In this document: positions 2,164 to 3,924 of the stretch, one piece after another
How the letters are laid out: each line of letters opens with the position of its first letter
How positions within the stretch are numbered: the stretch's first letter is position 1
DNA from: an uncultured SAR86 cluster bacterium
GTDB taxonomy: Bacteria > Pseudomonadota > Gammaproteobacteria > Magnimaribacterales > D2472
Direction of reading: 5' to 3'
Assembly: GCA_902560315.1 (NCBI GenBank)
Contig: CACELG010000001.1
Span: 186,001-250,000 of the forward strand
DNA: 64,000 bases
The notes under the pieces: generated by a model
The model's database searches: none
Seen by the model: only the letters and a program-made list of their open reading frames with translations
What the model was told of the DNA's origin: nothing
Program-made: the position numbers and the translations under genes

Positions 2164-2287
2164 TTCATTAAATATGTAGCAAAACTACATATAAAATCTC
2201 TTAAAAATACTATATCTAAAGTGTTTTAATAATTTATTGACTTTTGTATACATATATTTTTTAATTCACTACATAATAACTCACTTT

Positions 2288-2378
2288 ATTAATAGCAAAG
2301 AAAATATTATAGGTACATAATTATTTCCTCTATATATATAATTATTCCCCCCAAGTACCTATAATATTTGTTATTAAT
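2288..2378 (+). promoter_or_regulatory. Long interrupted inverted repeat in the pckA leader, ending 2 nt before the ATG
   Basis: AAATATTATAGGTAC (2302-2316) / GTACCTATAATATTT (2355-2369) is a perfect 15-bp inverted repeat; outer ATTAATAGCAA (2288-2298) pairs with TTGTTATTAAT (2368-2378) with one G-T; inner ATAATTAT at 2317-2324 and 2338-2345. Confidence 0.7.
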
Positions 2379-2379
2379 C

Positions 2380-3924
2380 ATGAGTAATCAACCACAAAAA
2401 TCTATTTGTATGAGCATCGATCAATTAATTGATGCTGCTGTTGCTAATAAAGAAGGCATTATTGCAAGTAATGGTGCATTTTCTACAACTACTGGAGAGA
2501 GGAGTTCAAGAAGCCCTGAAGATAGATTTATTGTAAAAGAAGCTCACACAGAGGATTTAATTGAATGGGGTGAAGTAAATAGGCCTTTTGACAGAGAAAA
2601 ATTCAATAGTTTGTGGGATAAAGTTGAATCTTATTTGGCCAAACAAAGTAGTTATATATCAAATGTTCATGTAGGAGCGCATCCAGAATATTATTTACCT
2701 GTTCAGGTTACTACCGAAACGGCATGGCATTCATTGTTTGCTAGATTAATTTTTATAAATCCAGATAATTTTAATCCACTTAATAAAATAAAGTGGGAAA
2801 TTTTAAGCGCTGCAAACTATGAATGTATTCCTGAAGAAGATGGGACTAATTCAGAAAGTTGTATAGTGATTAACTTTTCTGAAAGAAAGGTCTTAATTGC
2901 AGGCATGAAATATGCAGGCGAGTTAAAAAAATCGATGTTCTCTGTTCAAAATTTTTTATTAACTGACGACGACGTGTTGCCAATGCACTGCTCAGCAAAT
3001 ATAAATAAAGATAGTAATGTGACTCTGTTTTTTGGTCTATCAGGAACAGGTAAAACAACACTCTCAGCAGATCTTAAATGTTCACTCATAGGCGATGACG
3101 AACATGGTTGGAGTAAAGGAGCTGTTTTTAATTTTGAGGGTGGTTGTTATGCAAAAACTGTTAATTTGTCAAAAGAAAACGAGCCAGTAATTTACAACGC
3201 TATAAAGCATGGAAGTGTAATTGAGAATGTTTACATAGGTGACAATAATAAACCTGATTATTCTAATATTTCGATTTCAGAGAACGGAAGATGTTGTTAC
3301 CCAAGATCACACATCGAGAATGCTGTTAAAGAAAATGCAGCAGGAGAACCAAAGACCATTATATTCTTAACATGTGACCTTACTGGTGTAATACCTCCAG
3401 TCTCAATATTATCCAGAGAAAGTGCAGCCTATCATTTCTTAAGTGGCTATACTGCAAAGCTTGGCTCGACAGAAAGAGGAGCTGGGGCTCCTATTCAATC
3501 TACTTTTTCTACATGTTTCGGCGCTCCTTTTTTCCCAAGGCCAGCAAGCGTATATGCAGATCTTTTAATGAAGCGTGTTGAAGAATTTGATTCTAAGGTG
3601 TTTCTTGTAAATACTGGTTGGACAGGCGGTCCTTATGGAGTCGGATCTAGGTTTGATATTCCAATTACTAGAAGAATAGTAACTGCAATTCAGGATGGAG
3701 AGTTAAATAACGTAGAAACATTAAAAATTCCTGGTTTAAACTTGAGCATACCCAAATCTGTAAATGGAGTGGACTCAAAATTATTGAATCCAATTGAAAA
3801 TTGGGATGATAAAGATAAATATCAAAAAAAGTTAGAAGACTTAGTATCACAATTCCAAGAAAATTTTAAAAAATATGATGTAAATCAAGAAATAGTGTCA
3901 GCCGGTCCAGGATTTGATGGCTAA
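2380..3924 (+). CDS. pckA: Phosphoenolpyruvate carboxykinase (ATP type)
   Basis: [14 protein letters not shown] and GGPYGVGSR motifs; the ORF track start at 2368 (TTG) is probably upstream of the true ATG at 2380. Confidence 0.95.

Follow-up and report, generated by a model that had tools for sequence, protein, structure and literature searches.

The 5′ leader of pckA in an uncultured SAR86 bacterium probably carries a cis-acting structured RNA, specific to one SAR86 genus, that would mask the start of the gene. SAR86 are abundant, mostly uncultured ocean bacteria with a small genome. The window analyzed here, a stretch of 64,000 nucleotides, belongs to a 285-kb contig of a 1.08-Mb genome. 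In it, pckA lies between a dsbB-like gene on its 5′ side and gshA on its 3′ side. The gene and the elements of the hairpin that precedes it are as follows.

2380-3924, plus strand: pckA, ATP-dependent phosphoenolpyruvate carboxykinase (NCBIfam NF006823 and TIGR00224, both over their cut-offs)
2288-2298, plus strand: outer helix, 5′ strand (fold; wobble and compensatory changes)
2299-2303, plus strand: one-sided 5-nt bulge, constant in length and variable in sequence (28 inferred changes in 5 columns, gap-free)
2304-2316, plus strand: left arm of the main stem, 13 bp, nearly invariant (1 inferred change in 13 columns, 27 species)
2317-2324, plus strand: inner stem ATAATTAT, 5′ strand, 8 bp (no inferred change)
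2325-2337, plus strand: apical loop, 13 nt, with an invariant CCUC at 2327-2330 (no change in CCUC; adjacent loop columns vary)
2338-2345, plus strand: inner stem ATAATTAT, 3′ strand (no inferred change)
2346-2354, plus strand: 3′ internal loop UCCCCCCAA, 9 nt, with an invariant CCCAA (3 C/T changes in 9 columns)
2355-2367, plus strand: right arm of the main stem, with TATAAT at 2360-2365 (no inferred change)
2368-2378, plus strand: outer helix, 3′ strand (fold; changes coordinated with the 5′ strand)

Three nested pairings had been claimed upstream of pckA in the original prediction, and all were found where it placed them. The outer pair joins 2288-2298 to 2368-2378 over 11 bp, including one G-U. 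The 15-nt perfect pair (2302-2316 with 2355-2369) is present in the sequence, but only 13 of its pairs form when the RNA is folded; the main stem is thus 13 bp long (2304-2316 with 2355-2367) because T2368-T2369 pair in the outer helix. The 3′ arm was also correctly described as ending 2 nt before the pckA ATG, with only C2379 between the end of the arm (2378) and the ATG (2380). The folding check that had been proposed, run on positions 2270-2400, yielded -28.1 kcal/mol compared with a mean of -9.3 kcal/mol for shuffled sequences (z = -7.55), and none of 200 shuffles folded as stably. The hairpin is not a simple terminator, as anticipated, since no terminator in the form of a G+C-rich stem followed by a U-tract was found after the leader stem. 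Inspection of upstream ORFs by eye revealed no ATG or GTG inside the leader. A TTG at 2368 is in frame with pckA, and this frame is not kept in the relatives checked.

A covariance model of the element matched 29 of the 203 genomes of the order, each with a single copy located upstream of pckA. All matches fell in a single genus (29 of 34 sampled genomes) and none in the 21 other genera of the order. In four of the five unmatched genomes of the genus, no pckA was detectable; the remaining one, G016, carries a degenerate element that has lost one arm. In a public genome collection, CCCCAARTACCTATAATAT was found at 27 loci, all SAR86 or unclassified gammaproteobacterial. Searching the window's own genome for a second copy with the covariance model returned a single other match, which was noise, and a MITE or other repeat-family element was rejected as the element is single copy in the genome. 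One viral-collection contig, L079 (IMGVR_UViG_3300006334_001617), in which a region with a phage-like DNA polymerase is linked to SAR86 gshA-pckA and the hairpin, is probably a chimeric assembly and was kept out of the evidence.

Conservation of the element is extreme. Across 27 species, its 66-column core (alignment columns 42-107) reaches 96.8% identity, against 51% in the bulge region, 64% in the 5′ segment and 43% at pckA fourfold-degenerate sites, and pckA synonymous sites are near saturation in the genus. The main stem, the inner stem and CCUC together show one change in 46 columns. As the main stem is nearly devoid of compensatory changes, its pairing is consistent with the data rather than independently proven. 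The outer helix, in contrast to this frozen stem, varies in an informative manner, and the covariation that the original prediction had called for was found there as wobble and compensatory double changes in relatives. We inferred the changes on a pckA protein tree and scored pairs 29-36 and 42-54, leaving out the divergent pair L023/L024. Pairing was preserved by 15 of 16 changes, nearly all of which were A<->G opposite U. On the left outer-helix strand, A/G changes made up 12 of 14, versus 19 of 92 in unpaired columns used as a control (Fisher p = 4e-6). In addition, the C30-G114 pair underwent double changes, to A-U in the clade of the window and to U-A in L023/L024. These last two species have a weaker fold, with TAGGT/ACCTA, CCCAA and ATATATAA kept.

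As A<->G changes would give A-C mismatches on the opposite strand, the selected molecule appears to be RNA transcribed in the pckA direction. For the same reason we set aside a mini-ORF found on the antisense strand of the hairpin in some relatives, e.g., L029 (GAGGAG-ATAATT-ATG TAC CTA TAA), where a well-placed Shine-Dalgarno sequence precedes a three-codon frame. Leader columns 1-41 of alignment A2 are variable in sequence yet free of internal indels throughout the genus.

Upstream of the hairpin lie three further putative elements.

2175-2189, strand not applicable: palindrome TGTAGCAAAACTACA, putative RccR/HexR-type operator O1 (half-sites as in the Pseudomonas RccR site)
2237-2265, plus strand: putative promoter P1, TTGACT, 17 bp, TTTAAT (transcription start predicted near 2272)
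2267-2273, strand not applicable: CACTACA, which may be an operator half-site (O2), at the predicted start of P1 (family-wide conservation; one half of the O1 palindrome)

P1 is missed by a simple promoter scan because its -10 box matches poorly. The distance from its TTGAC to the right arm is 119 nt in every genus relative with P1 but L014 (121, owing to a loop insertion), a spacing that is fixed although the intervening sequence varies. P1 is also found in genera g2, g3, g13 and g14, all without the hairpin. Its conservation upstream would place the hairpin inside the transcript.

O1 is the only exact TGTARYNNNRYTACA match in the genome. Among the 28 genus relatives with O1, 24 have it at -181 from the right arm, and it also occurs in further genera of the same family. 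It lies 62 nt upstream of the P1 TTGAC, and the spacing is near-constant across genera; in L023/L024, O1 is closer to P1 by 10 bp, about one helical turn. This one-turn shift suggests a protein-DNA geometry at the operator, unlike the RNA signature of the hairpin. The 15-bp Pseudomonas RccR binding site, TGTAGTAAAACTACA, has the same half-sites as O1, and pckA is an RccR target in Pseudomonas (PMC5489143). The window's genome encodes a HexR-like protein of the RpiR family, which scores best against the NCBIfam model HexR (234.6 bits, short of the cut-off of 296). With TGTAGT/ACTACA-type half-sites and an RpiR-family regulator in the genome, 2175-2189 is a predicted RccR/HexR site. Together, O1 and the O2 half-site overlapping the predicted P1 start suggest DNA looping.

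We then considered how accessible the pckA start would be. No Shine-Dalgarno sequence is visible before pckA, as had been noted, which is normal here since such a sequence precedes only about 18-21% of the genes whose upstream region is free. In long transcripts with canonical elements, opening the 15 nt upstream of the AUG would cost about 6-18 kcal/mol at 37°C, and 6.3-25.7 kcal/mol over 5-37°C, the cost being higher in the cold. The corresponding value is 3-4 kcal/mol at 37°C in L023/L024, and 0.2-4.3 kcal/mol in a short transcript from a putative second promoter, P2 (see below). Because of these opening energies, the thermosensor-like leader that had been put forward is taken as excluded. 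The broader proposal of an RNA leader folding over the pckA start is otherwise supported by a conserved single-copy element, by sense-strand wobble and compensatory changes and by the position of P1 upstream; what it missed is the RccR/HexR-type operator and the signs of an older role for the right half of the hairpin, perhaps as a second promoter.

The following mechanism would account for these observations. Transcription from P1, with its predicted start near 2272, would produce a leader of ~108 nt that folds into a long interrupted hairpin, the 3′ strand of which ends a few nt from the AUG. The fold would cover the upstream half of the landing site of the ribosome, so that pckA translation would be off or low. 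A molecule that opens or stabilizes the structure would probably make contact with the invariant unpaired CCUC (apical) and CCCAA (3′ internal loop). This candidate trigger might be a metabolite or a protein, an antisense RNA being less likely. An RccR/HexR-type regulator probably controls P1, which would give two layers of carbon control on pckA. The P1 start site, the translational block, and both the existence and the nature of the trigger are what we infer from the sequence.

Two post-transcriptional regulators were examined as well. The leader contains no GGA and CsrA was not detected in eight genomes of the genus, and it was rejected as a CsrA target; CsrA is present in three of four SAR86 genomes from other families. 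The leader was likewise disfavoured as a target of Hfq-dependent sRNAs, as none of 12 SAR86 genomes, several of them incomplete, had a detectable Hfq. CsrA and Hfq-dependent sRNAs being unlikely, a metabolite or an RNA-binding protein remains as the candidate.

The main rival to a masking leader arises from the right half of the hairpin. In genus g13, CTATATAAAT...TTAATACCTATAAT is kept 9 nt before the ATG with no left arm at all. G016, which is nested within the genus on the tree, has lost the operator, P1, the left arm, CCUC and the outer GTTAG, and it still has pckA and the right-half ATATATAATTAT...CCCAAATACCTATAATATT. No HTH_6 regulator match was found in G016, whose genome is only 76% complete. 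Since the right half is kept where the left arm is absent, in g13 and in G016, part of its conservation must have another cause; it seems to be older than the left arm and to have a hairpin-independent function. The TATAAT at 2360-2365 may be the -10 box of P2, with a start near 2372. We scanned G015 contig 1 (L154-L213) and G000 contig 1 (L132-L146) for a leaderless signature. TATAAT-like boxes in G015 peak 12-15 nt before the ATG (27, 17, 13 and 8, against a mean of 5.2), and a Shine-Dalgarno sequence is found in 18% of G015 genes with a free upstream region and in about 18-21% in the genus genomes examined. The genus shows a genome-wide leaderless or short-leader signature. When intergenic regions of the contig were compared with those of G015, uncalled small genes and RNA genes dominated the result. 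The box peak and the scarcity of Shine-Dalgarno sequences make a -10 box plausible, and with it a two-promoter arrangement in which a short-leader mRNA starting at P2, ~8 nt before the AUG, is translated while the hairpin silences P1 and dsbB read-through transcripts. We regard this bypass as unlikely. It fits the near-open start of the short transcript, and a right arm frozen as a promoter would account for the non-covarying main stem, in addition to its retention in g13 and G016. However, a TTGACA-like -35 box is absent at the usual distance, and the TATAAT lies 20 nt before the ATG, beyond the sharp 12-15-nt peak. Moreover, the bypass leaves unexplained the invariant CCUC, lost together with the left arm in G016, and it would have P1 and its operator drive an untranslatable RNA.

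Other readings fare less well. The original prediction had also offered a large operator; in such a reading, the inverted repeats around P2 might be recognized by a dimeric or tetrameric regulator, as near-invariant arms and fixed spacing among operator, P1 and hairpin could suggest. This is improbable, as the wobble changes of the outer helix are specific to the sense strand, the one-sided 5-nt bulge spoils DNA symmetry, and L014 has a 2-nt insertion in the loop, between the arms; the pattern favours an RNA structure more than a DNA operator. It is very unlikely that the hairpin serves as an RNase III-type substrate, cut to release a short-leader pckA mRNA in a lineage often translating leaderless messages: a long interrupted stem directly upstream of the AUG and the leaderless signature of the genus would suit such processing, but it would make the invariant loop and stem sequence unnecessary. 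Conserved C-rich, G-free loops raise the idea of a 5′UTR-derived RNA acting in trans, with base pairing between its CCUC and CCCCCC loops and Shine-Dalgarno sequences elsewhere. We consider it highly unlikely, given that no terminator is found 3′ of the hairpin, that Hfq was not detected in the 12 SAR86 genomes and that few genes of the genus have a Shine-Dalgarno sequence. Finally, the 15-bp repeat of the hairpin is the longest perfect short-loop inverted repeat of the 285-kb contig, and stems of that length were reached in 3 of 20 shuffled AT-rich contigs of like composition. A chance inverted repeat or a repeat-family element is nevertheless barely conceivable for a single-copy sequence conserved across a genus with near-saturated pckA synonymous sites, and the 96.8% identity of the core against 43% at fourfold sites rules out a chance repeat.

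We thus return to the masking leader. With a covarying structure, the outer helix, in the 5′ leader of a single gene, the element is filed as a putative cis-regulatory structured mRNA leader and not as a riboswitch. It is conceivable, albeit doubtful, that it represents a new riboswitch class that senses a central-carbon metabolite via CCUC and CCCAA and gates pckA translation. If so, it would act jointly with a KDPG-type transcription regulator at pckA, in a lineage without detected Hfq or CsrA that often initiates without a Shine-Dalgarno sequence. A near-frozen leader despite nearly saturated pckA synonymous sites points to strong and specific control of the gluconeogenic branch point. The element also offers a concrete RNA for in vitro ligand tests, and a probable case of start-codon masking where Shine-Dalgarno sequences are seldom used.

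No Rfam family matched the element at its gathering score, and lenient matches were to unrelated eukaryotic or viral families (E 0.7-7). Among open-licence papers, we found no report of SAR86 leaderless transcripts or riboswitches, or of a pckA leader hairpin, that matches the element. It resembles the Cis-reg leaders of Rfam in being structured and conserved, with a single target gene, a fold by the start codon and invariant unpaired bases; it differs from them in consisting of one interrupted hairpin, in its restriction to a single genus and in a stem as frozen as its loops. The two-promoter bypass would follow the logic of the early-transcript hairpin of the phage T4 lysozyme gene e and of the protection of the IS10 and IS50 transposase genes against read-through, where the start is covered by a hairpin in the long transcript and escapes it in a shorter one. 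Those are phage and transposon genes, whereas pckA is a housekeeping gene whose second promoter is only inferred. In the ROSE and FourU RNA thermometers, a stem covers the initiation region; the pckA hairpin is, by contrast, much too stable at marine temperatures, and it has no Shine-Dalgarno sequence to mask. A parallel at the DNA level is RccR/HexR control in Pseudomonas, where, as in SAR86 with its HexR-like protein, a TGTAGT/ACTACA-type palindrome lies upstream of pckA; the excerpt of PMC5489143 used here makes no mention of an RNA hairpin. Control of Pseudomonas pckA is at the DNA level and involves a 29-bp site, whereas SAR86 has a putative 15-bp site and a half-site (PMC5489143).
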